A stretch of DNA of 64,000 nt from contig NC_017955.1 in NCBI RefSeq assembly GCF_000306785.1, forward strand, positions 2,294,001-2,358,000, given 5' to 3'. A model generated the notes under the pieces. It made no database searches. It worked only from the letters and a program-made list of their open reading frames with translations, and was not told the DNA's origin. Below are positions 19,631-58,490 of this stretch, one piece after another. The stretch comes from Modestobacter italicus (GTDB lineage Bacteria > Actinomycetota > Actinomycetes > Mycobacteriales > Geodermatophilaceae). Positions within the stretch are counted from its first letter, which is position 1; each line of letters starts with the position of its first letter. The translations under genes and the position numbers were made by a program.

Positions 19631-19705
19631 GCCCACTCCGTCGTGAGTCGGTGTCTGGTGCCGTGCCGGCGCGGTCACCGGCGGCCGTTGCCGGCCCGCG
19701 CGGCG

Positions 19706-19722
19706 AACAATCGATAATCAAG
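19706..19722. promoter_or_regulatory. Regulon operator site A (dikinase operon)
   Basis: ATCGATAATCAA sits about 80 bp upstream of the dikinase operon start. It matches the shared palindrome TCGATNATCGA at 10 of 11 positions, and its GATTATCG core on the minus strand is the same as at the livK site. Confidence 0.7.
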
Positions 19723-19836
19723 CAGATGGGTGTGACGCGCGTCAACCCTCTGTGGTGACGCAGGTCGCAGGACGCTCGCCGGGCCCCGGCCGGGCGGGGT
19801 AGCGGCTTGACAGCGTCCGGATCCGGAGGGCTCACT

Positions 19837-19875
19837 ATCGATGAGCGCGCCGTCCCAGCGCCGGCGATCGATGAG
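19837..19875. promoter_or_regulatory. Putative autoregulatory repeats at gntR1
   Basis: ATCGATGAG occurs at 19837-19845 and again at 19867-19875, exactly 30 bp apart (about three helical turns), between a TTGACA-like -35 element (19807-19812) and the chosen gntR start at 19886. These are half-matches to the regulon palindrome and could be a weak autoregulatory operator. Confidence 0.45.
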
Positions 19876-19885
19876 AGGGGCCCGC

Positions 19886-20584
19886 ATGGCATCGGCGCCG
19901 CAGCGTCCCGTCCTGCTCCGCGAGGAGATCAAGGAGCGCATCGTCGAGCGGATCCTCGACGGCACGTACGGGCCGGGCGAGCGGATCGTGGAGAGCGCGG
20001 TGGCCGCGGAGTTCGGCGTGAGCCAGGCGCCGGTCCGGGAGGCGCTGCGCGACCTGGAGGCCATGCGCTTCGTCGAGAGCCAGCCGCACCGCGGCGCGCG
20101 GGTGCGCGAGGTGAGCACCGAGGAGCTCGTGCAGATCTACCCGGTGCGGGCGGCGCTGGAGGAGGTCGCCGGCCGGGAGGCGGCGCCGCGGATCACCGAC
20201 GAGCAGCTCGGGCTGCTGGCCGAGGAGCTGGCCGGCATGCGCCGGGCCGCCGACGCCGGCGACCTGCACGCGCTGATGGTCCACGACACCCGCTTCCACG
20301 AGGTCATCGTCGAGGCCGCCGGCAACCAGGTGCTGCTCGACGTCTGGCGCTCCCTGCGGGTGGAGGCCCGCAGCCTGGTCAGCGCGCTCAAGAGCCACTC
20401 CGACCTGCACTCGATCGCGGAGCTGCACCGGCCGGTGCTGCAGGCCGTGCAGTTCCGCGACCCCGACTTCCTCGGCCGGGAGATGCGCGCCCACATCGAG
20501 TTCTTCGGCGCCTCGGTCATCTCCCACCTCCGCCGGGACGCCGTCGCGGTCCCTCACGCCACGGAGGGCTCCACCCCGAGGTAG
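19886..20584 (+). CDS. GntR family regulator 1 (FadR/VanR-like)
   Basis: 232 residues. The winged-helix DNA-binding domain reads LREEIKERIVERILDG, RIVESAVAAEFGVSQAPVRE and ALRDLEAMRFVE, with HRGARVRE as the wing. The C-terminal FCD domain has VRAALEEVAGREAA and metal-ligand-type D-x-x-F-H (DTRFHEVIVEAAGN) and later His residues, so it likely binds a carboxylate ligand with a metal. ATG 19886 is preferred because GAGAGGGG is 5 nt upstream. It is divergent from the dikinase operon and convergent (31-bp overlap) with livF. It is 1 of 3 closely related GntR proteins in this window. Confidence 0.88.
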   Translation: MASAPQRPVLLREEIKERIVERILDGTYGPGERIVESAVAAEFGVSQAPVREALRDLEAMRFVESQPHRGARVREVSTEELVQIYPVRAALEEVAGREAAPRITDEQLGLLAEELAGMRRAADAGDLHALMVHDTRFHEVIVEAAGNQVLLDVWRSLRVEARSLVSALKSHSDLHSIAELHRPVLQAVQFRDPDFLGREMRAHIEFFGASVISHLRRDAVAVPHATEGSTPR

Positions 20585-21279
20585 CGGCGCTGGGCGTCGG
20601 GGTCGGCGAGCAGCTCGGCCGACGTGGTCTCCAGCGCGACCTCGCCGTGCACCATCACCAGCAGCCGGTCGGCCACCGCCGTGGCCATGCCGAGGTTCTG
20701 CTCGACCAGCAGCAGGGTGAGCCCCTCGGCGACCAGCGTCCGGCAGGTCTCGGTCAGCTGCTCCACGATCGTCGGCGCCAGCCCCTCCGACGGCTCGTCC
20801 ATCAGCAGCAGCTTGGGGTTGGTCAGCAGCGCCCGGCCGATCGCGAGCATCTGCTGCTCGCCACCGGACAGCATCGCCGCGCTCACCTTCCGCCGCTCGG
20901 CCAGCCGCGGGTACAGGTCGTAGACGGCGTCGACGTCCCACTGCCCGCGGCCGACGAGCGAGCGGCTGAGCATCCGCAGGTGCTCGTCGGTGGTCAGCGA
21001 GGGGAAGATCCGCCGGCCCTGCGGGACGTAGGCGATGCCCCGGCGGCAGATGTCGTAGGACGGCCGGCCGAGGATCTCCTCGCCGTCCAGTCGGATCGAC
21101 CCGCGGGCGCGCGGTGGCGTGATGCCCATGATCGCCTTGCACAGGGTCGACTTCCCCATGCCGTTGCGGCCGACGATGCCGGTCGAGCGCTGCCCGACGG
21201 AGGCCGACAGCGCGTGCAGCACGTGCGCGCTGCCGTAGTGGGCGTCGAGGCCGGAGATCTCCAGCACCTGCTCAGACAT
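20554..21279 (-). CDS. livF: Branched-chain-amino-acid-type ABC transporter ATPase LivF
   Basis: 241 residues. Walker A GRNGMGKST, signature LSGGEQQMLAIGRAL, Walker B LLLMDEPSEGLAP and the LivF-specific stretch TLLLVEQNLGMATAVADR. It is the last gene of livH-livM-livG-livF, each overlapping the next by 4-8 bp. Liv-type importers in actinobacterial catabolic clusters often carry aromatic acids or amides rather than leucine. The surrounding regulon suggests that here (inference). Confidence 0.93.
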   Translation of the reverse strand: MSEQVLEISGLDAHYGSAHVLHALSASVGQRSTGIVGRNGMGKSTLCKAIMGITPPRARGSIRLDGEEILGRPSYDICRRGIAYVPQGRRIFPSLTTDEHLRMLSRSLVGRGQWDVDAVYDLYPRLAERRKVSAAMLSGGEQQMLAIGRALLTNPKLLLMDEPSEGLAPTIVEQLTETCRTLVAEGLTLLLVEQNLGMATAVADRLLVMVHGEVALETTSAELLADPDAQRRYLGVEPSVA

Positions 21280-22036
21280 GGGCCTTCCCCAGGTAGAGGT
21301 CGTGGACGCGCTGGTCGGCCCGGATCTCGGCCGGTGTGCCCTCGACGATCACGACCCCGTCGTGCATCATCGTCACCCGCTCGGCCACGGTCAGGGCCAC
21401 GTCCATGTCGTGCTCGATCAGCAGCAGGGTCACGTCCCGGTCCAGGGAGAGCAGGAGCGCGGTCAGCAGCTGCCGCTCGGACCGGGAGAGCCCCGCCGCC
21501 GGTTCGTCCAGCAGCAGCATCCGCGGCTCGGCGACCAGCGCCAGGCCGATCTCCAGCTGCCGCTGCTCCCCGTGCGACAGGTCGCCGGCGAGGGTGTCCA
21601 GCCGGTCGGTCATGCCGACGCTGGCCGCCGTCGCGCGGGCGCGCTCCCGCGCCGTCCGGTCGCGTGCGCTGCGCAGCAACCGGAACCGGCCGCCGTCGAC
21701 GCCCACGGCGGCCAGGTAGAGGTTGTCCTCGACGGTGAGCCCGGTGAGCAGCCGCGAGGTCTGGAACGTCCGGGACAGGCCGGCGCGGGTGCGCTGCCGG
21801 GCACCCAGCCGGGTGGCCTCCGCGCCGAACAGCTCGATGCTGCCCGAGGTGGGGGTGTCCGCCCCGGCGATCAGGTTGAACAGCGTGGACTTGCCCGCGC
21901 CGTTGGGGCCCAGCACCGCCCGGCGCTCGCCGGGGGCGATGTCCAGGTCGACGTCGCGGACGGCGACCACGCCGCCGAAGCGCCGGGTCACCCCCCGCAC
22001 GCGCAGCACCGGCTCGGGGTGGACGGCGTCGGTCAC
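21272..22036 (-). CDS. livG: Branched-chain-amino-acid-type ABC transporter ATPase LivG
   Basis: 254 residues. Walker A GPNGAGKST, the LivG hallmark RTRAGLSRTFQTSRLLTGLT, signature LSHGEQRQLEIGLAL, Walker B LLLDEPAAGLS and IEHDMDVALTVAERV. GTG 22036 overlaps the livM stop (GTGA). Energises import through LivH and LivM together with LivF. The binding protein is not in this operon; the likely partner is encoded at 28910-30295. Confidence 0.93.
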   Translation of the reverse strand: MTDAVHPEPVLRVRGVTRRFGGVVAVRDVDLDIAPGERRAVLGPNGAGKSTLFNLIAGADTPTSGSIELFGAEATRLGARQRTRAGLSRTFQTSRLLTGLTVEDNLYLAAVGVDGGRFRLLRSARDRTARERARATAASVGMTDRLDTLAGDLSHGEQRQLEIGLALVAEPRMLLLDEPAAGLSRSERQLLTALLLSLDRDVTLLLIEHDMDVALTVAERVTMMHDGVVIVEGTPAEIRADQRVHDLYLGKAHV

Positions 22037-23073
22037 AGGGCGCTCCTCGAGGACACCGGGACGGGGGCGGCGGGCGCGCTCGGGACGGTCGGCGCCGGCG
22101 GCGGACCGGCCAGGTGCCGGCGGATCCAGGTGCCCGCGCTGCCGAGCAGGCCGACCACGCCGCCGGGGGAGACCAGCACGATGACCAGGAAGACCACGCC
22201 CAGCCAGGTGGTGAAGCGGTCGGTCCACCCGCGCAGGTAGGTGTCGCAGAGCGTGTAGAGCAACGCCCCGACCCAGGCCCCCTCGAGCCGGTTGAGCCCG
22301 CCGATGACGGCGGTGGTGAGCACCAGGATGGCTATGCCCAGCGAGATCGAGCCGGCCGACATGCGGGTGTTCGACCACGCCGAGAGGACCCCGGCGGCGC
22401 CGGCGACCGGTGCGGCGAGCGTGAAGCCGAGCGTGCGGTGCAGCCGGACGTTGTAGCCCAGCGCGGCCATCCGGACCGGGTCGTCGCGGACGCCCTGCAG
22501 CGCCAGCCCGAACGCCGTCCGGGAGACGTGCCGGAGGCCCAGGAAGACCAGCACCGACACGGCCAGCAGGAAGTAGTACATCCGGGCCGGGTCCTGCACC
22601 GGGTCGCCGATCAGGTCCGGCGGCGGGACGCCGTTGATGCCCTCGTGCGCCCCGAAGGTGGGCACTGCGGCGAAGTAGAAGTACGTCACCTGGGCGAACG
22701 CCAGGGTGATGATCAGGAAGTAGATGCCCTGGCTGCCGCTGGCCACGGCGCCGAAGAGCAGGCCGACGGCGGTGGCGGCGAGGATCCCGGCCAGCGCGGC
22801 CGCCCAGGGGTTCCACCCCGCCTCGACGGAGAGCTTGGCGGCGATCAGCCCGGCCACGCCGAACAGCGCCGTCTGGGCCAGCGACACCATGCCGCCGTAG
22901 CCGGACAGGAAGGTCAGGCTGACCGCCACGATCCCGAGCCACAGCGAGGTCAGGCCGACCTGGCTGGTGACGAAGGTGGAGAACAGCAGCGGTACCAGGG
23001 CGACCAGCAGGAGCAGGGCCGCGAGCACGCCGCGGGTGCCGAGGGTCAGCCATCGGTCCATCGCGCGGGTCAT
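22033..23073 (-). CDS. livM: Branched-chain-amino-acid-type ABC permease LivM
   Basis: 346 residues with about nine to ten transmembrane helices. LivM features: TFLSGYGGMVSLAQTALFGV (cytoplasmic loop contacting LivG), the GINGVPPPDL region, a RTAFGLALQGVRDDPVRM coupling segment, and GGLNRLEGAWVGA. The C-terminus is a Pro/Ala-rich cytoplasmic tail. The start ATG 23073 overlaps the livH stop. It forms the heterodimeric channel with LivH. Confidence 0.92.
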   Translation of the reverse strand: MTRAMDRWLTLGTRGVLAALLLLVALVPLLFSTFVTSQVGLTSLWLGIVAVSLTFLSGYGGMVSLAQTALFGVAGLIAAKLSVEAGWNPWAAALAGILAATAVGLLFGAVASGSQGIYFLIITLAFAQVTYFYFAAVPTFGAHEGINGVPPPDLIGDPVQDPARMYYFLLAVSVLVFLGLRHVSRTAFGLALQGVRDDPVRMAALGYNVRLHRTLGFTLAAPVAGAAGVLSAWSNTRMSAGSISLGIAILVLTTAVIGGLNRLEGAWVGALLYTLCDTYLRGWTDRFTTWLGVVFLVIVLVSPGGVVGLLGSAGTWIRRHLAGPPPAPTVPSAPAAPVPVSSRSAL

Positions 23074-24095
23074 CGCGCCTTCCCGAAGAGTCCGGTCGGC
23101 CGCACCGCGAGGATCGCGGCGAGCAGCACGAAGGTGAGCAGGGCGGAGAGATTGGCGTACTCGGCCGGCAGGTACGCGCTGGCGTACTGGTCGACCAGGC
23201 CCAGCAGCAGGGCGCCGATGGCGGCGCCGCCGAGGCTGCCCATGCCGCCGACGATGACCACGACGAGGGCGCTGACCAGGAACGACTGGTCCTGGCCGGG
23301 CGCCAGCGAGAGCGCGGTGCCGGCGAAGGCGCCGCCCAGGCCGGCCAGCGCGGAGCCGACGAAGAACGCGCCGGCGAACACCAGCTGGACGTTCACCCCG
23401 AGCGCCGAGGTCATCTGCGTGTCGTCGACGCCGGCGCGCACCACCATCCCCACCCGGGTGCGGGTGTAGACCAGCCAGAACAGCACGCCCACGAGCAGGG
23501 CGGCCACCAGCATCGCGATGCGGAAGGTCGGGTAGGAGAGGTCGTAGACACCGAGGGGCAGCGGCTGGGCCAGGGACTCCGGCGGCGCGATGGCCGTCGG
23601 GGTCGCCCCGAAGTAGGCGAGCATCTGGTCGGCCAGGATCAGCGAGACCGCGATGGTGATCAGCGCCTGGCGCAGGTCCTGCCCCTGGTTCCAGCGCAGG
23701 AAGAGCTGGTGCATGACCAGCCCGACGCCGCCGCTGACGAGCATCGCCAGCGCCGCGGCCAGCCACCAGGACATGCCGGCGTCCTGCACCAGGGTCAGCG
23801 CCACGTACCCGCCGAGCAGGAACAGCGCGCCGTGGGCCAGGTTGGTGACCCGCAGCAGGCCGAAGATCAGCGTCAGCCCGCTGGCGCTGATGAAGTACAG
23901 ACCGGCGAGGGTGAGCCCGTTGAGCGTGATGAGGATGAACGTCGGGACGTTGCCCGTGCTCCCCAGGCCCTTCTCGAAGGCCTGCCACAGCACCCCGAGG
24001 AGTCCGAGGACGCCGATCACCACCGCGGCGGTCGCGGCCACCGGGAGGTGCGGTCGGGGTGCCGAGCGGCGCACCGCTGTCGTCTGTGTGGCCAT
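23070..24095 (-). CDS. livH: Branched-chain-amino-acid-type ABC permease LivH
   Basis: 341 residues, about eight to nine helices. LivH hallmarks: GLTLAGLYFISASGLTLIFG, RVTNLAHGALFLLGGY, and RAGVDDTQMTSALGVNV followed by GGMGSLGGAAIGALLLG. ATG 24095 is chosen over the in-frame codon at 24158, which would place the operator at 24130 inside the gene. First gene of livHMGF and divergent from the Tm-1-like gene; both share the operator at 24130-24146. Confidence 0.92.
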   Translation of the reverse strand: MATQTTAVRRSAPRPHLPVAATAAVVIGVLGLLGVLWQAFEKGLGSTGNVPTFILITLNGLTLAGLYFISASGLTLIFGLLRVTNLAHGALFLLGGYVALTLVQDAGMSWWLAAALAMLVSGGVGLVMHQLFLRWNQGQDLRQALITIAVSLILADQMLAYFGATPTAIAPPESLAQPLPLGVYDLSYPTFRIAMLVAALLVGVLFWLVYTRTRVGMVVRAGVDDTQMTSALGVNVQLVFAGAFFVGSALAGLGGAFAGTALSLAPGQDQSFLVSALVVVIVGGMGSLGGAAIGALLLGLVDQYASAYLPAEYANLSALLTFVLLAAILAVRPTGLFGKAR

Positions 24096-24129: not shown

Positions 24130-24146
24130 AACCGATAATCGATTAG
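24130..24146. promoter_or_regulatory. Regulon operator site C (livHMGF / Tm-1-like divergent promoter)
   Basis: AACCGATAATCGATT (24130-24144) lies between divergent livH and the UPF0261 gene. Its reverse complement is identical over 15 bp to the livK site at 28843-28857. It matches TCGATNATCGA at 10 of 11 positions. Confidence 0.8.
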
Positions 24147-24186: not shown

Positions 24187-25398
24187 GTGAGTCCTCCGAC
24201 CGTCGTCCTCGTGGGCACCCTGGACACCAAGGGCGACGAGTACGCGTTCCTGCGCGCACGGCTGCACCAGGCCGGCGTCGCCACCCTGCTGGTGGACGTC
24301 GGCACGCAGGGGCCGCCGCGCACCTCGCCCGACGTGCCGCGGGAGGAGGTGGCCGCCGCGGGCGGGTTCGACCTCGCCGACCTGACCGACCGGGGGGCCG
24401 CCGTGGCGGCCATGTGCGCGGCCGCGCCGCTGGTGGTCCGCCGGCTCTTCGACGAGGGCCGCTGCCAGGGGGTGCTGGCCGCCGGCGGGTCGGGCAACAC
24501 CGCCATCGCGACCGCGGCCATGCGGGCGCTGCCGGTGGGGGTGCCCAAGCTGGTGGTCTCCACGATGGCCTCCGGCGACACCGCGGCCTACGTCGACGTC
24601 AGCGACGTGACGATGATGCCGGCCGTCACCGACGTCGCCGGGCTCAACTCGGTCTCCGCGCGCATCCTCGCCAACGCCGCGGCCGCGGTGGCCGGCATGG
24701 TCAGCGCGCCGCCGGTCGAGCTGGACTCGTCCCGCCCGGTCGTCGCGGCGACGATGTTCGGCGTCACCACCGCGGCGGTCACCACCGCGCGGCAGGAGCT
24801 GGAGCGCCGCGGCTACGAGGTGCTCGTCTTCCACGCGACCGGCACCGGCGGGCGCAGCATGGAGAGCCTGGTCGAGTCCGGGTTCGTCACCGGCGTGCTG
24901 GACCTGACGACGACGGAGCTCGCCGACGACCTGGTCGGCGGGGTGCTGTCGGCCGGGCCGCATCGGCTGGAGGCGGCCGGCCGGGCAGGCGTGCCGCAGG
25001 TCGTCTCGCTCGGTGCGCTGGACATGGTCAACTTCGGCCCGCGCGCGTCGGTGCCCGACCGGTTCGCCGACCGGCAGCTCTACGTGCACAACCCGAGCAT
25101 CACGCTGATGCGCACCACGTTGGAGGAGTGCGCCGAGCTCGGCCGCCGGGTGGGTGCCAAGCTCAGCGCGGCCACCGGGCCGGTCGCGCTCTTCGTCCCG
25201 CTGCGGGGCGTCTCGGCGATCTCCGGCGAGGGTGGCCCGTTCGCCGACCCGGAGGCCGACGCCGCGCTGCTGGCCGGGCTGCGCGAGACGCTCGCGCCGT
25301 CGGTCGAGGTGCACGAGGTCGACACGGACGTGAACGACCCCGCGTTCGCCGTGGCCATGGCGGCGCGGCTCGACGAGTTCCTGGGAGGCGCACGATGA
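24187..25398 (+). CDS. UPF0261 / Tm-1-like ATP-binding domain protein (copy 1)
   Basis: 403 residues. The family signature [17 protein letters not shown] is at residues ~10-26, with [49 protein letters not shown] and [13 protein letters not shown] further on. This is the N-terminal half of the tomato antiviral Tm-1 protein and of fungal homologues. The bacterial function is unknown. GTG 24187 has AAGGAG 4 nt upstream. Its stop overlaps the ATG of the TIM-barrel gene, which corresponds to the C-terminal half of Tm-1, so the pair is a two-gene form of a fused eukaryotic protein. Under the shared operator at 24130. Confidence 0.88.
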
Positions 25399-26222
25399 AC
25401 GGTGAGCAGGCGCGGCAGCGGCTGCGGGAGACCCGCGCGGCCGGCGGCACGATCGTCGGGGCCGGCGCGGGCACCGGGCTGTCCGCGAAGTGCGCGGAGG
25501 CCGGTGGCGCCGACCTGATCATCATCTACAACTCCGGCCGCTACCGGATGGCCGGCTGCGGCTCCCTCGCCGGACTGATGCCCTACGGCGACGCCAACGC
25601 GATCGTGCTGGACATGGCCGCGGAGGTGTTGCCGGTGGTCCGGGAGACCCCGGTGCTCGCCGGGGTCTGCGGCACCGACCCCTTCCGGCTGATGGACCGG
25701 TTCCTGCGCCAGGTCGAGGACACCGGCTTCGCCGGGGTGCAGAACTTCCCGACGGTCGGGCTCATCGACGGGGTCTTCCGGGCCAACCTCGAGGAGACCG
25801 GGATGAGCTACGCGCAGGAGGTCGAGATGATCGGCCTGGCCGCCGAGCGCGGGCTGCTCACCGCGCCGTACGTGTTCGACGTCGCCTCCACCGAGGCCAT
25901 GACCCGGGCCGGGGCCGACGTGCTGGTCCCGCACATGGGGCTGACCACGAAGGGCAGCATCGGGGCGCAGACCGCGCGGACGCTCGACGACTGCGTGGCG
26001 CTGGTCCAGGAGATGCACGACGCGGCGGTGGCGATCAACCCCGACGTCATCGTGCTGTGCCACGGCGGGCCGATCGCCGAGCCGGACGACGCGCAGTACG
26101 TCCTGGAGCGCACCCGCGGGGTGGTCGGCTTCTTCGGCGCCTCCAGCATGGAGCGCCTGCCGACCGAGGTGGCGATCACCGAGAACATGCGGCGGTTCAA
26201 GCAGGTCCGCACCGCTCCTTGA
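25395..26222 (+). CDS. PEP-hydrolase-like TIM-barrel protein (Tm-1 C-terminal half)
   Basis: 275 residues. Typical of the TIM-barrel family often annotated phosphoenolpyruvate hydrolase: [72 protein letters not shown], and [17 protein letters not shown] at the end. It overlaps the UPF0261 gene by 4 bp. The enzymatic activity of the family is not settled; a lyase or hydrolase on a phosphorylated or C3 keto-acid substrate is possible. Context: same regulon as a PEP-synthase-like dikinase and a phosphatase. Confidence 0.85.
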
Positions 26223-26381: not shown

Positions 26382-27086
26382 ATGTCCGGCCCCGACGCCC
26401 TCACCCGCAGCGTGCTCGCCGACCAGGTCAAGGAGCGGCTGCTGGAGGCGATCCTCGACGGGTCGTACCCGCCCGACTCGCGCATCGTCGAGACCGCCGT
26501 GGCCAAGGAGCTCGGCACCAGCCAGGCGCCCGTCCGCGAGGCGCTGCGCGGCCTTGAGGCGCTGGGCATCGTCGAGATCACCCCGTTCCGCGGGGCGCGG
26601 GTGCGCCGGCTGGACGTCGCCGAGCTGCTCGAGGCCTACGTCGTCCGCTCGGCGATCGAGGTCCTGGGCGCGCGGCTGGCGGTGGCCCGGCTGACCGACG
26701 ACGACGTCGCGGCGATCGCCCGGATCGGCGAAGACATGCGCCGCGTGGCCGACGCCGCCGACGGCCGCGCGCTGGCCATCGTGGACGCCAGCTTCCACGA
26801 GAAGATCATGTCCCTGTCGGGCAACAGCACCCTGCTGCGCGTCTGGCGCTCGCTGGAGCCGATGTCGCGCACCTACATCACCCTGGTCGGACCCAACTCC
26901 GACCCGCAGTGGACCTGCGGTCTGCACGACCCGATCCTCGAGGGCATCCACCGCCGGGACGCCGACGCGGTCGTGGCGGCGATCGAGCGCCACTTCGACC
27001 AGGTGCGCGAACGGCTGGCCGGCTCGCTGGCCGGCGTCGCCGAGCAGCAGGACTCCGCAGCGCAGCCGGCCACCGGGACCTCCTGA
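26382..27086 (+). CDS. GntR family regulator 2 (FadR/VanR-like)
   Basis: 234 residues. Winged helix: LADQVKERLLEAILDG, RIVETAVAKELGTSQAPVRE, ALRGLEALGIVE and FRGARVRR. The FCD domain has VRSAIEVLGARLAV and DASFHEKIMSLSGN. It is highly similar to GntR 1 at the recognition helix (SQAPVREALR), which supports overlapping operator specificity. ATG 26382 has GGAGG 6 nt upstream. It is followed 65 bp later by mmsA on the same strand. Confidence 0.88.
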   Translation: MSGPDALTRSVLADQVKERLLEAILDGSYPPDSRIVETAVAKELGTSQAPVREALRGLEALGIVEITPFRGARVRRLDVAELLEAYVVRSAIEVLGARLAVARLTDDDVAAIARIGEDMRRVADAADGRALAIVDASFHEKIMSLSGNSTLLRVWRSLEPMSRTYITLVGPNSDPQWTCGLHDPILEGIHRRDADAVVAAIERHFDQVRERLAGSLAGVAEQQDSAAQPATGTS

Positions 27087-27151: not shown

Positions 27152-28642
<1,491 letters not shown>

Positions 28643-49656: not shown

Positions 49657-49670
49657 AATCGATTCTCGAT
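49657..49670. promoter_or_regulatory. Regulon operator site F (MBL-SDR-ADH operon)
   Basis: AATCGATTCTCGAT lies about 100 bp upstream of the MBL gene. Matches TCGATNATCGA at 10 of 11 positions. Confidence 0.72.
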
Positions 49671-50370: not shown

Positions 50371-50451
50371 GCGGGACCTCCGGGTCGGGAGAACGCGCCG
50401 GGACGCCACCGCGGCGGTGGCGTCCCGGCGTACGGGTGGGAAGGGGGTGCG

Positions 50452-51803: not shown

Positions 51804-54131
51804 CTACTGCGCGGCCTCGGCCGCCTGGATCGCCGCCCACACCCGCTCGGGGGTCAGCGGCAGCTCGCGGATGACCACCCCGGCGGCGTCGGCGACCGCC
51901 GCGCCGAGCGCGCCGGCGGTGCACAGCAGGGCGCCCTCGCTGATCCCCTTCGAGCCGTACGGGCCCGGGCCGTCGTGGTTCTCCACGGCGGCGCTGACCA
52001 GCTCCAGCGGGACGTCCTTGAAGGTGGGGATCCGGTAGTCCAGCGCACCCAGGTTGCGGATCCGGCCGTGCTCGTCGAGCAGCAGCTGCTCCATCTGGCT
52101 GTGCCCCAGGCCCATGATCGCCGCACCCTCGTCCTGGGAGACGACCTGCAGCGGGTTGAGCTCGGTGCCCACGTCGCTGACCGTCACGTGCCGGGTGAGC
52201 AGCAGCTCGCCGGTCTCCCGGTCGACCTCGACCTCGATCGCGGTGGCGTTGAACTCGTAGAAGGCCGCGTCGCCACCCAGCGGGTGCTTGCTCTTGCCGC
52301 GCAGCCGCCGGGTGCCCTGGCCGATGAACTCACCGCGCAGCGACCCGAGGGCCACCCGCGCCGCCTCGGGCAGCGGGAGCTCGCCGTCCGGGGTGACCAG
52401 CACCCCGGGCCGCTCGCCCAGCTCCTCCTCCGCGACGCCGGTGGACTCGGCGTAGAGCGCGAGCACCCGCTGGCGCACGTCCTTGCAGGCCTCGAGCACC
52501 GCCGAGCCCATGAACACCGTGGAGCGGCTGGCCGAGGTCTGCAGGTCGAACGGCACGGTGCCGGTGTCCCCGCTGACCACGCTGACCTGCTCCAGCGGCG
52601 CACCCAGCTCGTCGGCGACGATCTGCTGCCACAGCGTGCGGGCGCCCTGGCCCATGTCCGAGGTGCCGGCGTAGACGATCGCGCTGCCGTCGGCCAGCAG
52701 CCGGACCAGGCTCTGCGAGAGCCCGGAGGTGGCCCCGGGCTTGATGCCCACGGCGATGCCCCGGCCCCGGCCCGGCGGCAGCGGCGTGCCCCAGCCGATC
52801 AGCTCGGCGGCCTTCTCCAGGCTCTGGTGCCACTCACCGTCGGCCGCCGCGGCCGACTCGCCGCGCACGAACGCCTCGCCCTTGCCCACCAGGTTGCGGC
52901 GGCGGATCTCCAGCCCGTCCAGGCCGAGCCGCCGGGCGCCGGCGTCCAGCTGCGACTCCAGCGCCCAGGAGACCTGCGGGCTGCCGAAGCCGCGGAACGC
53001 CGTGCTGGGCGTGGTGTTGGTCATCACCGCGCGGGCGTCGATCCGCACCCCGGGGATGCGGTACGGCCCGGCCGCGACGTAGCTGCCCTTGCCCATCACG
53101 CGGGGGGCGACGTCGGCGTAGGCGCCGATGAGGAAGTCGGCCTCGACGGAGTGGAAGGTGAGCGCGCCGTCGGCGGTGAAGCCGGTGCGGGCGGCGATCC
53201 GGCAGCCGGCCCGGCGCATGCTCTGGAAGGTCTCCTCGAGGGAGAGCACCAGCCGGCAGGTCCGCCGGGTGCGCAGCGCCAGGAAGGCCAGCAGCGGCTC
53301 GAGCTTGGGGTTCTGCTTGCCGCCGAAACCGCCGCCGGGGTCCGGGGCGAACACCCGCACCTGGTTGAGCGGCATGCCCAGCACCGAGGCGATCGTCCGC
53401 TGCAGCAGGTAGGGGTGCTGGACGGGGGAGTAGACGTCGATGCCGCCGGCGTCGGTCGGGACGGCGACGGTGCCGCCCGGTTCGATCGGGAAGTGCGTGA
53501 CCATCGGGAAGGTGTAGGTCTCCTCGACCACCACCTCGGTGCGCGCCTCCTCGGCCGCCAGGTCGCCCCAGGCGTAGTGCGCGTCCTCCAGCACGTTGGT
53601 CTCGGCGAGGGCGTGCCCCGGGCGGAGCGCGGGCTCCTGGACCAGGTGCGCGCCGGGGGCCAGGGCGTCGTCCAGGGTGTAGACCCCGGGCAGCTCCCGG
53701 TAGTCGACCTGCACGGCGCGGGCCGCGGCCTGGGCCGCGTCCAGGGTCTCCGCGACGACGGCCGCGACCGGCTCCCCGTGGTAGTTGACCCGGCCGTCGG
53801 CGAGCACCGGCCGGTCGGTGTGCGAGACGCCGAAGCGCGGCATCGGGGAGGGCAGGTCGGCGGCGGTCAGCACGTCGACGACACCCGGGATCGCCCGGGC
53901 GGCCGTGGTGTCGACCCCGAGGACCTCGGCGCAGCCGACCGGCACCGACACCAGCGCGACCTGCAGCGAGCCGGGGAAGCGCAGGTCGGCGACGAAGCGC
54001 TGGGCGCCCGACGTCCGGTCGCCGCCGCCGTAGCGGAGCACCGGCCGGCCGACCTGGCCCTGCGGGTAGGGGTCCGACGGCTCGCCGAGCGCGTCGCGCT
54101 GCTCGATGGCGCGTTCCGGGGCCGTGGTCAC
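51804..54131 (-). CDS. Xanthine-dehydrogenase-family molybdopterin-binding (large) subunit
   Basis: 775 residues. Mo-hydroxylase blocks: GEPVAAVVAETLDAAQAAAR, PDPGGGFGGKQNPKLEPLLA, TAFRGFGSPQVSWALESQLD, SDMGQGARTLWQQIVADELG, and the catalytic Glu region PYGSKGISEGALL. The CO-dehydrogenase AYRCSFR loop is absent, so this is a hydroxylase, not CO dehydrogenase. It would add a water-derived OH to an aromatic, heteroaromatic or aldehyde carbon. GTG 54131 overlaps the 2Fe-2S subunit stop. The order FAD - FeS - Mo follows the M-S-L style. Confidence 0.92.
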   Translation of the reverse strand: MTTAPERAIEQRDALGEPSDPYPQGQVGRPVLRYGGGDRTSGAQRFVADLRFPGSLQVALVSVPVGCAEVLGVDTTAARAIPGVVDVLTAADLPSPMPRFGVSHTDRPVLADGRVNYHGEPVAAVVAETLDAAQAAARAVQVDYRELPGVYTLDDALAPGAHLVQEPALRPGHALAETNVLEDAHYAWGDLAAEEARTEVVVEETYTFPMVTHFPIEPGGTVAVPTDAGGIDVYSPVQHPYLLQRTIASVLGMPLNQVRVFAPDPGGGFGGKQNPKLEPLLAFLALRTRRTCRLVLSLEETFQSMRRAGCRIAARTGFTADGALTFHSVEADFLIGAYADVAPRVMGKGSYVAAGPYRIPGVRIDARAVMTNTTPSTAFRGFGSPQVSWALESQLDAGARRLGLDGLEIRRRNLVGKGEAFVRGESAAAADGEWHQSLEKAAELIGWGTPLPPGRGRGIAVGIKPGATSGLSQSLVRLLADGSAIVYAGTSDMGQGARTLWQQIVADELGAPLEQVSVVSGDTGTVPFDLQTSASRSTVFMGSAVLEACKDVRQRVLALYAESTGVAEEELGERPGVLVTPDGELPLPEAARVALGSLRGEFIGQGTRRLRGKSKHPLGGDAAFYEFNATAIEVEVDRETGELLLTRHVTVSDVGTELNPLQVVSQDEGAAIMGLGHSQMEQLLLDEHGRIRNLGALDYRIPTFKDVPLELVSAAVENHDGPGPYGSKGISEGALLCTAGALGAAVADAAGVVIRELPLTPERVWAAIQAAEAAQ

Positions 54132-54640
54132 CGCTCGCTCCGCCGGGCCGCCGTGGCCTGCACCGCGCGGACGATGCGCTGGTAGCCGGCGCAGCGGCAC
54201 AGGTTGCCCGACAGCGCCTCGCGGATCTGCGTCTCGTCGGGGGAGGGGTTGGTGCGCAGCAGGTACTCCGCGGACACCACCTGGCCGGGGATGCAGAAGC
54301 CGCACTGCACGGCCCCGGCGGCGAGGAACTCCTCCTGCAGGTCGGTCAGCCCGTCGGCGGAGAGCCCCTCGACGGTGGTGACCTCGTGCCCCTCGGCCTC
54401 GACGCACAGCACCAGGCAGGAGTTCACCGCCTTGCCGTCGAGCAGCACCGTGCACGCCCCGCACTCGCCCTCGGCGCAACAGCTCTTGGTGCCGGGCAGC
54501 CCGACCTCCTCGCGGAGGCCGTCGAGCAGGGTGCGGTGGGTGGGGACGGCGACGGTGCGCTGGCTGCCGTTGACGGTCAGCGTGACCGTCTGCAGCGCGT
54601 CGTCGTCGAGGTGGTCGGGCACGCGGGCGGTGCTGGTCAC
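54128..54640 (-). CDS. Mo-hydroxylase 2Fe-2S small subunit
   Basis: 170 residues. N-terminal plant-ferredoxin-like cluster: SCCAEGECGACTVLLDGKAV with NSCL (C-x4-C-x2-C-xn-C). C-terminal all-helical cluster: GAVQCGFCIPGQVVSAEYLL and GNLCRCAGYQRIVRAV (C-x2-C ... C-x-C). It passes electrons from the Mo centre to FAD. GTG 54640 overlaps the FAD subunit stop. Standard length for the family. Confidence 0.94.
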   Translation of the reverse strand: MTSTARVPDHLDDDALQTVTLTVNGSQRTVAVPTHRTLLDGLREEVGLPGTKSCCAEGECGACTVLLDGKAVNSCLVLCVEAEGHEVTTVEGLSADGLTDLQEEFLAAGAVQCGFCIPGQVVSAEYLLRTNPSPDETQIREALSGNLCRCAGYQRIVRAVQATAARRSER

Positions 54641-55491
54641 GACGCCATCTCCCTGGGGTCCCGGCGGTCCGCCGCAGCGAGGACCGCACGCTTGGTCAGT
54701 ACTCGGAGCGTGGCCAGCCGGTACTCCCGGCTGCCCCGCACGTCGGAGATCGGGGTGGCGACCGCCACCAGCTGGTCCAGCGCCCGGTCGAGGGCGGCCG
54801 GGTCGGTGAGGTCCACCGGACCGGGGACCTCGGAGCGCAGCGGCCGGGGGCCGACCGCGCCCATCGCGGCCACCAGCGCGCCGTCCGGGCCGACGCCGGC
54901 GGCGACGCTGACCGTCGCCAGGTCCACCCCGCGCCGCCGGGTGAGCCGGCGGAAGGCGGAACCGGACCCCGGGGCGGGCCGGGGCAGCTCGAGCCGGGTC
55001 ACCAGCTCGCCGGGTCCGCACAGCGTGCGGCGCGGGCCGAGGAAGAACTCGTCCAGCGTCGCCGTCCGGTCGCCGTCCAGGGACGAGATCGTCACCCGGG
55101 CGCCGTGCACCAGCAGCGGGGGAGCGGTGTCCGCGGCCGGGGAGGCGTTGCACGAGTTGCCGATCAGGCTGGCCCGGTTGCGGATCGCCACCGAGCCGAC
55201 GGTGAGCGCGGCCTCGACCAGCGCCGGGAACCACCCGCCGACGACGGGGTGGGTGACCAGCTCGCCCATCGTGTACGTGGGGCCGATCAGCACCGCGTCG
55301 TCGGTGACGACGACCGGTTCGGGGAGGTCGGTCACGCCCTTGAGGTCGACGAGCACGTCGGCGGTGTCGTGGTGGTGCCGCAGGCCGACCAGCAGGTCGG
55401 TGCCGCCCACGAGGGCGCGGGCCCGCGGACCCCCCTCGACGAGCGCGGTGAGCGCGTCGGCGCGGTTGGTCGGCCGGTGGTACTTCGGCAT
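54637..55491 (-). CDS. Mo-hydroxylase FAD-binding medium subunit
   Basis: 284 residues. CoxM-type flavoprotein: LVGGTDLLVGLRHHHDTADV (FAD-binding A-G-G-T-D variant), TVGSVAIRNRASLIGNSCNA with SPAADT, and a CO_deh_flav_C-like end. Start ATG 55491. It accepts electrons from the FeS subunit and passes them to an unknown acceptor. Directly upstream is the zinc ADH gene, with 28 bp between. Confidence 0.93.
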   Translation of the reverse strand: MPKYHRPTNRADALTALVEGGPRARALVGGTDLLVGLRHHHDTADVLVDLKGVTDLPEPVVVTDDAVLIGPTYTMGELVTHPVVGGWFPALVEAALTVGSVAIRNRASLIGNSCNASPAADTAPPLLVHGARVTISSLDGDRTATLDEFFLGPRRTLCGPGELVTRLELPRPAPGSGSAFRRLTRRRGVDLATVSVAAGVGPDGALVAAMGAVGPRPLRSEVPGPVDLTDPAALDRALDQLVAVATPISDVRGSREYRLATLRVLTKRAVLAAADRRDPREMAS

Positions 55492-55519: not shown

Positions 55520-56575
55520 TCAGGGATTGATGATGATCTTGATGGCGCCGCTGGAGCGGTCGTCGAAGACGGCGAGCGCCTCGGCGTACTCCGACAGCGG
55601 GAAGTGGTGCGTGATCAGCTCGCCGACGCGCATCCGGCCGTTGGCGACGAACGGCATCACCCGGCGCATCTCGCCGGCCGAGGCGCGCGAGCCGACCAGC
55701 TCGAGCTCGTCGAGGACGAGCGGCTGCAGGCGGAGGGCGACGTCCTCGGTCGGGATGCCGACCATGGCGCAGCGGCCGCCGCGGCGCAGCATCGCCATCG
55801 CCCAGGTCAGCGTCTCCGGCACCCCGGCGCACTCCAGGACGACGTCCGCACCGAGCCCGCCGGTCAGCTCGCGGACCGCGACGACCGGGTCGCCGTCGGC
55901 GGTGTCGACGGTCTGGAACCCCATGGCCGCGGCCTTCTGCAGCCGGTGCCCGCGGCCCACGACGACCACCCGGGCGGCGCCGCAGATGGTGGCCGCGTCG
56001 CCGGCGAGCAGGCCGATCGCGCCGGCACCGGTGACCACCACGGTGTCGCCGGGCTTGATGTTGCCGCGGCGGGCGACGTGCAGGGCGATGCTGGCCGGGT
56101 CGACCACGGCGCCCTCCTCGAAGGAGACCTCGTCGGGGAGCCGGAAGATGCACTTCACGTCGTGCACGGCGTAGGTGGCGTCGCAGCCGGCCACGTTGTG
56201 CCCGTACTGGGCGTGCAGCCCGGGCTTGCCGTAGTTCTCGCAGAGGTTGTACTGCCCCTCGACGCACTTCTGGCAGGCGCCGCAGGCGTTGTGGCTGGTG
56301 CCGGCGACCCGGTCGCCGACCGCCCAGCCGAACGCCTCGGCGCCCGGCCCGAGGGCGACGATCTCCCCGGCCCACTCGTGGCCGGGGGTGAACGGGAAGG
56401 CCGGCGGCCAGAAGCCGGGGTAGTGGCCGTGGATCAGGTGGGCGTCGGTGCCGCAGATGGAGGTGGCCCGCACCCGGGCGAGCACCTCGTGCGGGCCCGG
56501 CTCGGGGACCGGCTTCTCCTGGATCTCGAGCTTGTCGGGCTCCAGGACCACCAGGGCCTGCATCGTCTCGGTCAC
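55520..56575 (-). CDS. Zinc-dependent alcohol dehydrogenase (threonine/sorbitol-type)
   Basis: 351 residues. TSICGTDAHLIHGHYPGF carries the catalytic Cys, FTPGHEWAGEIVALGPGAEA the His-Glu pair, and CGACQKCVEGQYNLCENYG the structural zinc. VTGAGAIGLLAGDAATICGA binds NAD. The I-C-G-T-D form points to the polyol/threonine dehydrogenase branch rather than benzyl-alcohol type. First gene of the operon ADH - FAD - FeS - Mo - UPF0261 - phosphatase, behind operators G and H. Confidence 0.9.
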   Translation of the reverse strand: MTETMQALVVLEPDKLEIQEKPVPEPGPHEVLARVRATSICGTDAHLIHGHYPGFWPPAFPFTPGHEWAGEIVALGPGAEAFGWAVGDRVAGTSHNACGACQKCVEGQYNLCENYGKPGLHAQYGHNVAGCDATYAVHDVKCIFRLPDEVSFEEGAVVDPASIALHVARRGNIKPGDTVVVTGAGAIGLLAGDAATICGAARVVVVGRGHRLQKAAAMGFQTVDTADGDPVVAVRELTGGLGADVVLECAGVPETLTWAMAMLRRGGRCAMVGIPTEDVALRLQPLVLDELELVGSRASAGEMRRVMPFVANGRMRVGELITHHFPLSEYAEALAVFDDRSSGAIKIIINP

Positions 56576-56656: not shown

Positions 56657-56667
56657 CCGATCATCGA
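56657..56667. promoter_or_regulatory. Regulon operator site G (ADH / Mo-hydroxylase operon)
   Basis: CCGATCATCGA matches TCGATNATCGA at 10 of 11 positions, 82 bp upstream of the ADH start; paired with site H 37 bp further up. Confidence 0.68.
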
Positions 56668-56700: not shown

Positions 56701-56715
56701 CCTCTCGATAATCGA
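56701..56715. promoter_or_regulatory. Regulon operator site H (ADH / Mo-hydroxylase operon)
   Basis: CCTCTCGATAATCGA, an exact TCGATNATCGA match, is identical over 15 bp to site I (58391-58405). It lies just past the gntR3 stop and 126 bp upstream of the ADH start. Confidence 0.78.
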
Positions 56716-56718
56716 CGA

Positions 56719-57447
56719 TCAGCCGTCGGTGTCGCCGTCCTGGCCGGTGGCGGGGTCGCCGAGGGCGGCGGGGAAGTGCATCTGGAGCAGTTCGCTGACC
56801 GACAGCTGGTGCTCCCGCGCGGCGGTCGCGGCGCGCTCGGCGTCCCGGGCCCGCAGCGCGTCGAGGATGGGTCGGTGCTCGGCCACGATCCCGCGCACGT
56901 CGACCCCGGGCAGGGTCAGCGTGATGAAGGTGCGGGCGAACGGCGCGAGCTGGTCGAAGGCCCGCTGCAGGGCGTGGTTCTCCGAGGCCTCGGCGATCAG
57001 CTGGTGGAAGCGGACGTCGGCCTCGGTGACGCCGGGGAAGTCCTCGGCCTCCAGCCGCTCGAGCATCTCGGCGACGAGCCCCTCGAGGGCGTCCAGGGTG
57101 TCGTCGGCGATCCGCCCGGCCGCCAGGCGGGCGGCGAGGGCGTCGACCTCGGACCGCACCACGCTTACGTCGACCAGCTCCTTGGCGCTGGGCAGCCGGA
57201 CCCGGGCCCCGCGGCGCGGGTGGATCGTGACGATGCCGACGGCGGCCAGCTCGCGCAGCGCCTCACGCACCGGGGACTGGCTGAGCCCGAGCTCCTTGGC
57301 GAGCTTGAACTCCACGATCCGCTCACCGGGTCGGTAGTGGCCCCCGACGATCCGGTCGAGCACCAGCCGCTTCACCGTCGCCGAGAGCAGCTCGCCGCCG
57401 AAGTCGCCGCCGGCCGAGACCTCGCGCACCGCACGTGCCTCCGTCAC
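56719..57447 (-). CDS. GntR family regulator 3 (FadR/VanR-like)
   Basis: 242 residues. Winged helix: TVKRLVLDRIVGGHYRPGER, IVEFKLAKELGLSQSPVREA, LRELAAVGIVTIHPRRGARV. The FCD domain has VVRSEVDALAARLA, DVRFHQLIAEASEN (D-x-x-x-H metal-type motif) and VAEHRPILDALRARD. GTG 57447 overlaps the BKACE stop (GTGA). Third paralogue in the regulon; co-transcribed with the cleavage enzyme under site I. Confidence 0.88.
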   Translation of the reverse strand: MTEARAVREVSAGGDFGGELLSATVKRLVLDRIVGGHYRPGERIVEFKLAKELGLSQSPVREALRELAAVGIVTIHPRRGARVRLPSAKELVDVSVVRSEVDALAARLAAGRIADDTLDALEGLVAEMLERLEAEDFPGVTEADVRFHQLIAEASENHALQRAFDQLAPFARTFITLTLPGVDVRGIVAEHRPILDALRARDAERAATAAREHQLSVSELLQMHFPAALGDPATGQDGDTDG

Positions 57448-58370
57448 CGGGACCCGGAGTCCCGCAGGTCGAGACGGCGGCGGGCCTCCGCCGGGCTGGC
57501 GATCTCCCGGTGCAGCAGGCCGGCGATGGCGGTGATCCGCTCGACCTGGGCGGCGTTGGACTCGGCCAGCTTCCCCGGCCCGTCCCACAGCGAGTCCTCC
57601 AGCCCGACCCGGGCGTTGCCGCCGAGGGACAGCGCGATGGCCCCCAGCCGGATCTGCGCGGAGCCGGCGCCCAGCACCGACCACTCGAAGTCCTCGCCGA
57701 ACAGCCGGTGCGCCGTCCGGTGCATGTGCGCCAGGTCCTCGAAGTCCGCGCCGGTGCCGCCGAGCAGGCCGAAGACGGTCTGCACGAACAGCGGCGGGCG
57801 CACCAGGCCGCGGTCGAGCATGTTCGCCAGGTTGTACAGGTGGGCGGTGTCGTAGCACTCGAACTCGAAGCGGGTGCCCTGGTCGCCGCAGACCTTGAGG
57901 ATCCGCTCGATGTCGGCGTAGGTGTTCTTGAAGACGACGTCCTTGTCGGCCAGCCGCTCCCGCTCCCACTCGTGCTTGAAGGTGGGGTAGCGGTCGAGCA
58001 TCGGGAACAGCCCGAAGTTCATCGAGCCCATGTTCAGCGAGGCGAGCTCCGGGGCCAGCTGCACGGCCGGGGCGATCCGCTCGTCGACGGTCATGTGCGG
58101 GCTGCCGCCGGTGGTCAGGTTGATGACCACGTCGGAGCGGTCCTTGACGACCGCCAGGACCTCCTTGAACAGGCCCGGGTCCTGCACCGGGTGGCCGTCC
58201 TGCGGGTCGCGCACGTGCAGGTGGACGATCGCCGCACCGGCCGCGGCGGCGCCGAGGGCCGCCTCGGCGATCTCCTCCGGCGTCACCGGCAGCGCCGGGG
58301 ACATCGTGGGGGTGTGGATCGCCCCGGTGGGCGCGCACGTGATGATCGCCGACTTCGCGGACCTGGCCAT
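57444..58370 (-). CDS. Beta-keto acid cleavage enzyme (BKACE / DUF849)
   Basis: 308 residues. BKACE pattern: IITCAPTGAIHTPTMSPALP, GAAIVHLHVRDPQDGHPVQD (zinc-binding H-x-H), INLTTGGSPHMTVDERIAPA, ASLNMGSMNFG, FEFECYDTAHL and GNARVGLEDSL. These enzymes condense a beta-keto acid with acetyl-CoA to give a CoA thioester and acetoacetate. The substrate-determining residues cannot be read by eye. ATG 58370 lies 24 bp downstream of site I. Suggests the regulon pathway produces a beta-keto acid (inference). Confidence 0.9.
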   Translation of the reverse strand: MARSAKSAIITCAPTGAIHTPTMSPALPVTPEEIAEAALGAAAAGAAIVHLHVRDPQDGHPVQDPGLFKEVLAVVKDRSDVVINLTTGGSPHMTVDERIAPAVQLAPELASLNMGSMNFGLFPMLDRYPTFKHEWERERLADKDVVFKNTYADIERILKVCGDQGTRFEFECYDTAHLYNLANMLDRGLVRPPLFVQTVFGLLGGTGADFEDLAHMHRTAHRLFGEDFEWSVLGAGSAQIRLGAIALSLGGNARVGLEDSLWDGPGKLAESNAAQVERITAIAGLLHREIASPAEARRRLDLRDSGSR

Positions 58371-58390
58371 GAGAGCCTCCCTCGGTGTGT

Positions 58391-58406
58391 CCTCTCGATA
58401 ATCGAG
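58391..58406. promoter_or_regulatory. Regulon operator site I (BKACE-gntR3 / cyclase divergent promoter)
   Basis: CTCGATAATCGAG (58394-58406) is a perfect 13-bp palindrome and an exact TCGATNATCGA match. It is identical over 15 bp to site H and lies between the divergent BKACE and cyclase genes. Confidence 0.82.
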
Positions 58407-58490
58407 GGTAGCGTGCCGCTGTGGCGCCGGCCACCACGAGGTGGCCCGGCCTGGATGTCCGACCGTGCTGACCGACCGAGGAGAGCCCGC

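Follow-up and report, generated by a model that had tools for sequence, protein, structure and literature searches.

A conserved palindrome as a candidate operator of three FadR-type GntR paralogues in Modestobacter italicus

Does one short palindrome, recurring along a 64-kb stretch of DNA (the window, by which we mean the whole stretch analysed), act as an operator shared by the GntR paralogues encoded there? An earlier note had described eight copies of TCGATNATCGA in a single regulon of about 40 kb. In this work we regard it as quite probable, on the evidence of sequence comparison, that TCGATwATCGA is the core of a ~19-bp element, conserved at seven promoter regions, which would be the operator that three FadR-type GntR paralogues bind for repression until a pathway metabolite releases them.

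Sites and gene modules

All eight sites exist (Table 1), and only the start coordinates first given for them were 0–5 bp too low. Three (P3, P6-O1 and P7) match TCGATNATCGA exactly and the remaining five differ from it by a single base, in agreement with the earlier count; the two longer repeats were also found again, P2 and P4 having AACCGATAATCGATT in common on opposite strands, and P6-O1 and P7 having TCCTCTCGATAATCGA in common. A weaker pair, placed at 19837 and 19867, is kept in 6/6 aligned genomes, with ACTATCGAT invariant in 6/6 sequences of the first half-site, but 19867 adjoins the likely ribosome-binding site of GntR1. Instead of one 40-kb unit we observed two modules, A (14.4–31.5 kb) and B (46.7–59.4 kb), separated by about 15 kb that holds other genes. 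According to our own gene calls all eight listed sites are intergenic, the intergenic share of the window being 14.6%. Six further matches to TCGATNATCGA with at most one mismatch are present in the window: 26260 overlaps 26253, 38586 is intergenic and outside both modules, and 30176, 32457, 44631 and 59379 are located within genes.

Table 1. Genes and palindromic sites of the two modules (window coordinates)
Feature	Position	Strand	Remarks
Aldehyde dehydrogenase	14415..15827	-	end of dikinase operon
ABM-domain protein	15820..16113	-	
Fumarylacetoacetate-hydrolase-family protein	16115..16978	-	
Dikinase ATP-binding subunit (PPDK_N)	16983..17852	-	
Dikinase PEP-utiliser mobile-domain subunit	17852..19630	-	
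Operator P1 (TCGATAATCAA)	19711..19721	.	between dikinase operon (-) and GntR1 (+)
Half-site ACTATCGATGA	19834..19844	.	5' of GntR1; first site of the weaker pair (19837)
GntR1	19886..20584	+	GntR + FCD domains; ORF from 19841
Branched-chain-type ABC transporter (livF, livG, livM, livH)	20554..24041	-	
Operator P2 (CCGATAATCGA)	24132..24142	.	between livH (-) and UPF0261 (+)
UPF0261 (Tm-1-like) protein	24187..25398	+	
PEP_hydrolase-family protein	25395..26222	+	
Operator P3	26253..26270	.	two overlapping palindromes, 7 bp apart; GntR2 promoter
GntR2	26382..27086	+	GntR + FCD domains; ORF from 26292
Methylmalonate-semialdehyde dehydrogenase	27152..28642	+	TIGR01722, above cut-off
Operator P4 (TCGATTATCGG)	28845..28855	.	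5' of substrate-binding protein gene
Periplasmic substrate-binding protein	28910..30295	+	
Transaldolase-family protein	30374..31489	+	
ADH2, SDR, metallo-beta-lactamase-fold protein	46738..49558	-	
Operator P5 (TCGATTCTCGA)	49659..49669	.	promoter of metallo-beta-lactamase-fold gene
His_Phos_1 protein + second UPF0261 protein	49714..51738	-	
Three-subunit molybdenum hydroxylase	51804..55491	-	
Zinc alcohol dehydrogenase ADH1	55520..56575	-	
Operator P6-O2 (CCGATCATCGA)	56657..56667	.	promoter of ADH1/molybdenum-hydroxylase operon
Operator P6-O1 (TCGATAATCGA)	56705..56715	.	same promoter as P6-O2
GntR3	56719..57429	-	GntR + FCD domains
BKACE enzyme	57444..58370	-	NF053538, 473.9 bits, cut-off 430
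Operator P7 (TCGATAATCGA)	58395..58405	.	between BKACE (-) and cyclase (+)
'Cyclase'-family protein	58491..59408	+	PF04199

In the seven aligned promoter regions the operator is an invariant or near-invariant block, kept at the corresponding promoters of relatives with two exceptions. P1 is kept in 6/6 aligned genomes, P2 as a 22-bp block, GGGGAACCGATAATCGATTAGG, invariant in 5/5, P4 as ATCGATTATCGGTTGA in 5/5, P5 as ATCGAGAATCGATTAT in 6/6 and P6-O1 as TCGATNATCGA in 6/6; P6-O2 has at most one mismatch in 5/6 aligned genomes, differing by two bases in G007, and P7 is kept in 5/6, G002 having two one-mismatch sites there instead.

Regulators, operator architecture and mode of control

GntR1, GntR2 and GntR3 all carry the N-terminal GntR winged helix (PF00392) and the C-terminal FCD domain (PF07729) above cut-off, which confirms the three FadR-type paralogues claimed earlier, and these were the only DNA-binding regulators found by Pfam among the module proteins scanned. 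They are diverged, 39–45% identical, and fall into three groups in a tree from which L130 was left out, the placement of GntR3 being unsure because of long branches. The helix SQ(A/S)PVREALR is common to all three while the rest has diverged, and thus a single operator would be served by three sensors. In the FadR subfamily three FCD histidines hold a metal; H139, H182 and H204 are invariant in 9/9 aligned GntR sequences. The best NCBIfam model for all three is TIGR03338 phnR_burk (140.9, 104.3 and 104.5 bits), an identity rejected since the scores are below the 271.5-bit cut-off; unlike for phnR_burk regulators, no phosphonate gene was seen in the modules.

The centre of the palindrome is mostly A/T and the element extends over about 19 bp, which corrects the N-centred description. 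This extent comes from weaker preferences on both flanks of the core: in 78 pooled sites with the sides counted apart (L057, L058, L059 and L114 left out as duplicates), each side separately prefers A at positions 6 and 9 and T at position 8, counted from the centre. Position 7 differs between the sides, and within a single site agreement between them is no more frequent than independence predicts. The FadR-subfamily operator consensus, TNGTNNNACNA or TKGT-N3-ACMA in the accessible parts of PMC4494728 and PMC2230225, does not describe it, as TCGATNATCGA keeps four of the six fixed bases with -2/+2 swapped. Like FadR-subfamily operators, it is an 11-bp palindrome with a single central base, retains T at -5, G at -3 and their mirror, and is located in or beside a promoter; unlike them, it has A/T rather than T/A at -2/+2, C at -4 and no GT...AC pair. 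That consensus is typical of most, not all, members, NanR and BioR being named as exceptions (PMC4494728, accessible part), so the deviation does not remove these GntRs from the subfamily. The same part of that paper reports extra boxes beside the core, as seen here, for 13 FadR-subfamily groups, and its main text holds no word starting with TCGAT or ATCGA.

In the proposed mechanism GntR dimers would bind the operator, the bound proteins would repress transcription of both modules, and they would be freed from it by a pathway metabolite whose predicted binding place is the FCD domains. All three GntRs, not only the nearest one, would read every site, and it is likely that they bind the same ones. 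A division of labour, with each GntR binding only its own module's sites, distinguished by their flanks (for example AACCGATAATCGATT in A against CCTCTCGATAATCGA in B), is a possibility that we take seriously without expecting it. The long pairs have distinct flanks, kept in relatives, the divergence of the paralogues into three groups would suit such specialisation, and GntR3 accompanies module B genes in the window, G006, G007, G010, G024, G002 and G236; but the 78 pooled sites reveal one common preference on both flanks, TCGATNATCGA is matched in both modules, by P3 in A and by P6 and P7 in B, and GntR1-type or GntR2-type members that stand alone in their genome also have this core next to them. 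In genomes with one such member an exact or one-mismatch site adjoins its gene, namely TCGATGATCGA 45 bp upstream in G068 (GntR1 group) and a one-mismatch site 113 bp upstream in G065 (GntR2 group). A search of 249 order-level genomes at E ≤ 1e-30 found none in which GntR3 is the sole clade member.

TTGAC-type promoters accompany the operator in 4/7 promoter regions, and for this reason repression is the likely mode of control; four of the five TTGAC-N16-19-NANNNT matches in the window are at operators. P3 is just 3' of the TTGACG-N17-TAGCTT promoter of GntR2, P4 downstream of TTGACG-N18-TACCAT, and P5 overlaps the -10 of TTGACA-N18-GATTAT (- strand) of the metallo-beta-lactamase-fold gene, while at the ADH1/molybdenum-hydroxylase operon promoter (- strand) P6-O2 is just downstream of the -10 and P6-O1 just upstream of the -35. 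P1, P2 and P7 showed no promoter of the TTGAC type. Activation instead of repression, with GntRs bound upstream of the -35 recruiting RNA polymerase, would suit P6-O1 and has a precedent in the activator function assigned to Corynebacterium glutamicum GntR1/2 at ptsG (PMC2230225, accessible part); we consider it unlikely, as P3, P4, P5 and P6-O2 overlap the -10 or lie downstream, which fits blocking.

Association of the palindrome with the GntR clade

Related GntR genes were taken from 74 loci of a best-80 list, found with a pattern demanding SQ(A/S/G). In an unseeded palindrome scan 5' of them (5-bp half-sites, spacers 0–4), TCGAT-N1-ATCGA came top in 15/71 regions, against 5 for the runner-up and a maximum of 4 in ten shuffles; left out were L066, with too little upstream DNA, and L058 and L059, which nearly duplicate L057. 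Among 35 family genomes, exact A/T-centred sites are present in 6/6 with clade GntRs versus 1/29 without (P about 4e-6), and the former have 10 such sites, all at the clusters; the sites are also present in another family genome, G236, which carries all three GntRs. A further set consisted of 20 other genomes, each carrying one of the 74 loci; they were picked after seeing which loci had sites, and the set is therefore biased towards loci with sites. In it a clade GntR (at least 180 bits) stands within 25 kb of 40/53 exact A/T-centred sites, with 0.7 expected, and 13/53 are not near one; seven of these genomes (L128, L122, L118, L093, L119, L097 and L127) have no site with at most one mismatch beside the GntR. 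The earlier note had proposed to look upstream of orthologous clusters; in related clusters of Actinomycetota and Chloroflexota the motif was found, with recurring pathway genes. These data support reading the palindrome as an operator-like element that goes with this GntR clade, both at the cluster's promoters and in related clusters. The literature matches listed include no paper on the TCGATWATCGA operator.

The association has its gaps. No site with at most one mismatch occurs from 400 bp upstream to 300 bp downstream of the GntR, gene body excluded, in 50/74 related loci, and 21/74 lack an exact site outside coding DNA in the stretch retrieved. G068 and G069 have no exact A/T-centred sites, G050 (43% GntR) has one-mismatch sites only and G053 (37% GntR) coding matches only. 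One exact A/T-centred site each is held by 8/24 order-level genomes without a close clade GntR, and hence the 11-mer alone is not diagnostic. These single sites, and the fact that co-occurrence alone cannot name the protein, would suit another factor binding the palindrome, or a methylation/restriction-type motif; we find this very improbable, since the scan upstream of GntR genes alone recovers the palindrome, which follows the clade in both phyla, and non-clade GntR loci have an exact site in 0/22, though a one-mismatch match in 5.

The genome-wide one-mismatch scan proposed earlier revealed that the A/T-centred form is rare and concentrated in the window. Of 18 sites at most one mismatch from TCGATWATCGA in the 5.58-Mb genome, a search which also admits exact G/C-centred copies, 7 are within the window (P about 7e-10), as are 4 of the 8 exact CGATWATCG copies, P2 being one of the eight; a chance or coding background was rejected for this form on these two counts. 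For N-centred TCGATNATCGA with at most one mismatch, the 14 window matches compare with 0.61 expected from shuffles and 3.2 from genome density, and thus the N-centred pattern has a real background, as has the G/C-centred form. Chance, in the form of GC-rich coding repeats of GAT/ATC codons, could draw on the 281 N-centred one-mismatch matches in the genome and on exact G/C-centred matches scattered over many contigs in the genomes listed (six whole and one in part, of 15), but is refuted almost beyond doubt by CGATWATCG clustering, TCGATWATCGA enrichment and the promoter alignments, the eight sites being intergenic and conserved in position. Off-window CGATWATCG copies were rejected as extra regulon members, with no cluster gene recognised by eye nearby: 1668284 and 3084632 are inside called genes (GC 0.63 around the latter), 2607300 lies some 50 bp beyond a gene's end, and 3082062 is intergenic, with a surrounding GC of 0.69.

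Related systems and the predicted pathway

The arrangement resembles that of C. glutamicum GntR1/GntR2, FCD-type GntR paralogues acting on one catabolic regulon through the same sites, shared binding being predicted here; the regulon differs, and the C. glutamicum proteins are 78% identical and redundant, whereas here there are three, at 39–45% (PMC2230225, accessible part). If the shared-operator reading is true, A/T-centred TCGATwATCGA beside a clade GntR is a searchable mark uniting the genes of one uncharacterised catabolic pathway in two phyla, UPF0261 and PEP_hydrolase proteins included; the system would be a natural setting for testing how paralogous repressors that differ in their ligands make use of a single operator, and for comparing the recognition helix with a two-base departure from the FadR operator. 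A bolder and rather doubtful extension is an ancient three-sensor switch, in which diverged GntR repressors with own ligand pockets would use one identical altered-FadR operator, the promoter would open only with all three ligands, and the same operator would govern a widespread, unnamed ring-cleavage pathway (dikinase, molybdenum hydroxylase, cyclase, UPF0261/PEP_hydrolase) in Actinomycetota and Chloroflexota.

The function of the cluster is likely catabolic, and the pathway's probable role is the degradation of an oxygenated ring compound, a reading based on the presence of the dikinase, molybdenum hydroxylase, cyclase-family protein, BKACE, methylmalonate-semialdehyde dehydrogenase and branched-chain-type importer. 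BKACE scores above the cut-off of the triacetate (3,5-dioxohexanoate) cleaving model (Table 1), and the cyclase-family protein, a candidate for the cyclase-family hydrolase (DPGC) of a phloroglucinol degradation cluster, matches its Pfam family with no NCBIfam model at E ≤ 1e-20. The SDR and two ADH genes of module B, considered for phloroglucinol reductase and 3-hydroxy-5-oxohexanoate dehydrogenase, gave no listed NCBIfam model above its cut-off (for the SDR, among the best 25 of 165 models). Solved structures of the cyclase, BKACE, UPF0261, dikinase subunit and transaldolase offered no decisive relative for the substrate. Neither an actinobacterial phloroglucinol cluster, among the literature matches listed, nor a bacterial pathway role for UPF0261/PEP_hydrolase, in the accessible text of papers naming them, was found. 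Compared with the phloroglucinol pathway of Clostridium scatologenes, as far as the accessible part of PMC10470551 describes it, no phloroglucinol reductase was identified here; a cyclase-family enzyme next to BKACE is common to both, and the present modules add dikinase, molybdenum hydroxylase, UPF0261/PEP_hydrolase and transaldolase-family genes.

Palindromic sites at the module promoters

The eight palindromic sites described in the earlier note are all present, starting 0–5 bp from the positions named there and with the match quality reported for them (three exact, five with one mismatch); beyond this confirmation, the element was found to be common to two phyla. After revision of gene starts with a codon-usage caller, trained on long genes of the window itself, 8 of 8 sites were intergenic, the intergenic share of the window being 14.6%. 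Six more one-mismatch matches occur in the window: one overlapping the site at 26253, one intergenic but outside both modules of likely catabolic genes, and four within genes.

Features of the window and their coordinates
Feature	Position	Remarks
Module A	14.4–31.5 kb	aldehyde dehydrogenase, ABM and FAH-family proteins, split dikinase, ABC importer, UPF0261, PEP_hydrolase, methylmalonate-semialdehyde dehydrogenase, binding protein, transaldolase-family protein
Sites in module A	19711, 24132, 26253, 28845	overlapping copy at 26260
Weaker element	19837	retained in 6/6 aligned sequences
ECF sigma factor, ABC transporter, third protein	34539–37745	third protein with weak zf-HC2 (zinc-finger) match below cut-off
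Intergenic one-mismatch match	38586	outside the modules
Low-GC stretch	40000–46700	GC 0.647 at 40001–44000, 0.697 at 44001–48000
HTH_38 family protein	44357–45145	inside the low-GC stretch
Module B	46.7–59.4 kb	ADH2, SDR, MBL-fold protein, phosphatase-family protein, second UPF0261, molybdenum hydroxylase, ADH1, BKACE, cyclase-family protein
Sites in module B	49659, 56657 (O2), 56705 (O1), 58395	O1 and O2 at ADH1; 58395 at BKACE/cyclase

The 14 one-mismatch matches in the window compare with 0.61 expected from shuffling and, given 281 matches of the same kind in the whole genome (5,575,517 bp), with 3.2 expected per 64 kb. In the genomes listed (six in full and one in part, of 15), exact copies centred on G or C were spread over many contigs, while those centred on A or T were few. 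A genome-wide scan placed 7 of 18 TCGATWATCGA matches (at most one mismatch, which takes in exact G/C-centred copies too) inside the window, with P of about 7e-10, although such P values are post hoc because the motif was derived from this window; for exact CGATWATCG, 4 of the genome's 8 copies are inside. Conservation and linkage to GntR genes are less exposed to the post hoc choice of motif. An off-cluster, intergenic CCGATAATCGA lies at G000:C1:2607299-2607309 (L010:8300) of the same genome, some 50 bp beyond a gene labelled by eye as isochorismatase-like; it may be background or a distant member of the regulon.

For seven promoter regions, alignments were built with G006, G007 and G010 (same genus), G024 (a different genus) and, for the regions that allowed it, Blastococcus tunisiensis or G002. 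Every aligned region keeps the operator unchanged or almost so, including a 22-bp block at the livH/UPF0261 promoter (5/5), ATCGATTATCGGTTGA at the binding-protein gene (5/5) and ATCGAGAATCGATTAT at the metallo-beta-lactamase-fold gene (6/6). The exceptions are O2 of ADH1, with two mismatches in G007, and the BKACE/cyclase promoter of G002, where two one-mismatch sites replace one exact site. Gene starts and -35 boxes are among the other conserved blocks.

Promoters of the form TTGAC-N16-19-NANNNT were found at five places in the window (both strands), four of them at operators. The -10 precedes the operator at GntR2, ADH1 (O2) and the binding-protein gene and is overlapped by it at the metallo-beta-lactamase-fold gene; ADH1 has a second operator 48 bp from O2, directly before the -35. 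No such promoter was found on either strand at 19711, 24132 or 58395. This layout suits a repressor, and from it we infer repression.

Association with the GntR clade and shape of the element

Within the genome, the closest paralogues of GntR2, one of three FadR-type regulators in the window, are GntR1 (165 bits) and GntR3 (137 bits), the next scoring 59. Related loci were collected by a pattern-plus-tblastn scan of species genomes (best 80 matches; the pattern requires SQ), which gave 74, mostly from Actinomycetota and Chloroflexota. An unseeded palindrome scan (250 bp upstream in 71 of the 74; 5-bp half-sites, spacers 0–4) ranked TCGAT-N1-ATCGA first, in 15 of 71 regions, against 5 for the runner-up and at most 4 in ten shuffles. 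Between 400 bp before and 300 bp after the GntR gene, 17 of the 74 loci have an exact site, 7 a one-mismatch site only and 50 none; an exact non-coding site occurs somewhere in 53 of the 74 fetched loci. GntR loci outside the four orthologous clusters (25, minus three from G002, G050 and G053) gave exact sites in 0/22 and one-mismatch matches in 5/22.

Of 35 same-family genomes, exact A/T-centred sites are present in 6/6 with clade GntRs and in 1/29 without, and all 10 sites of those six lie at clusters. G236, outside this count, has all three GntRs and sites too. Beyond the family, a single exact A/T-centred site occurs in 8/24 genomes, and none in G050 and G053, whose clade-like GntRs are weaker. 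In the 20 genomes behind the loci, a set biased towards loci with sites, there are 53 exact A/T-centred sites; 40 of them are no more than 25 kb from a clade GntR (at least 180 bits), against 0.7 expected. The other 13 are in G060, G065, G066, G070, G075, G076, G077 and G078; in this set no such site is near the clade GntR of G065 or G076, and G068 and G069 lack them altogether.

The centre base is A or T in 58 of 78 distinct exact intergenic sites. Counted separately for each side, the flanking base 6 from the centre is preferentially A (62 and 39), the base at 8 preferentially T (57 and 46) and that at 9 preferentially A (50 and 43), counts that come from related rows and are not independent; as the preferences appear on both sides, the element spans about 19 bp. 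Overlapping copies 7 bp apart occur in the window and in L068, L073, L075 and L129. Compared with TNGTNNNACNA, Rigali's consensus for the FadR subfamily as given in PMC2230225, the core retains the bases at -5 (T) and -3 (G) but has A, not T, at -2. According to PMC4494728, this subfamily uses TKGT/ACMA boxes plus weaker boxes 7–12 nt from the centre; no word starting with TCGAT or ATCGA appears in the main text of that paper.

Three paralogues and one candidate operator

GntR1, GntR2 and GntR3 share 39–45% identity, and a midpoint-rooted tree of 84 rows resolves groups of 14, 48 and 3 rows, one per paralogue, on branches of at least 99/99. They are diverged paralogues rather than recent copies; the joining order of the groups is unsure because of long branches, about which the tree program warned, the GntR3 group included. 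Each group has members with exact operators within 3 kb. Among genomes with a single clade GntR (180 bits or more), several of which are metagenome assemblies that may lack genes, G068 (GntR1 group) has TCGATGATCGA 45 bp upstream, G077 and G079 have exact sites within the locus, and G065, G070 and G076 one-mismatch sites near the GntR. Among 249 order-level genomes (E <= 1e-30), none was seen with GntR3 as its only clade GntR. The element near sole members, together with exact operators near all three groups, makes one candidate operator common to GntR1, GntR2 and GntR3 the likelier arrangement. The earlier interpretation stands for the most part, with joint action of the three paralogues as its predicted component; by the unseeded scan and the conserved promoters, the palindrome is an operator-like element tied to the GntR clade.

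Gene content of the modules and the DNA between them

In Acidimicrobiia and Chloroflexota, the operator is again accompanied by many of the module genes. BKACE scores above the NF053538 (3,5-dioxohexanoate cleavage) cut-off, an assignment matching the second C-C cleavage of the Clostridium scatologenes phloroglucinol pathway; there, a cyclase-family enzyme carries out the first C-C cleavage (PMC10470551). No phloroglucinol reductase was identified among the module genes. Split transketolase genes adjoin a Chloroflexota GntR and importer of the kind seen in the window (L064:1708-3557) and, with the transaldolase-family gene, hint at sugar-type C-C cleavage in the pathway. In another Chloroflexota cluster, a 295-aa protein without match in Pfam or NCBIfam is encoded between GntR and molybdenum hydroxylase genes (L093:8753-9640); L087 and L110 encode proteins with similar starts.

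The intermodule DNA of about 15 kb holds, among others, the ECF sigma factor, the ABC transporter and the low-GC stretch, whose HTH_38 protein is presumably a transposase fragment. In B. tunisiensis, the transaldolase-family gene adjoins ADH2 without this DNA between them.
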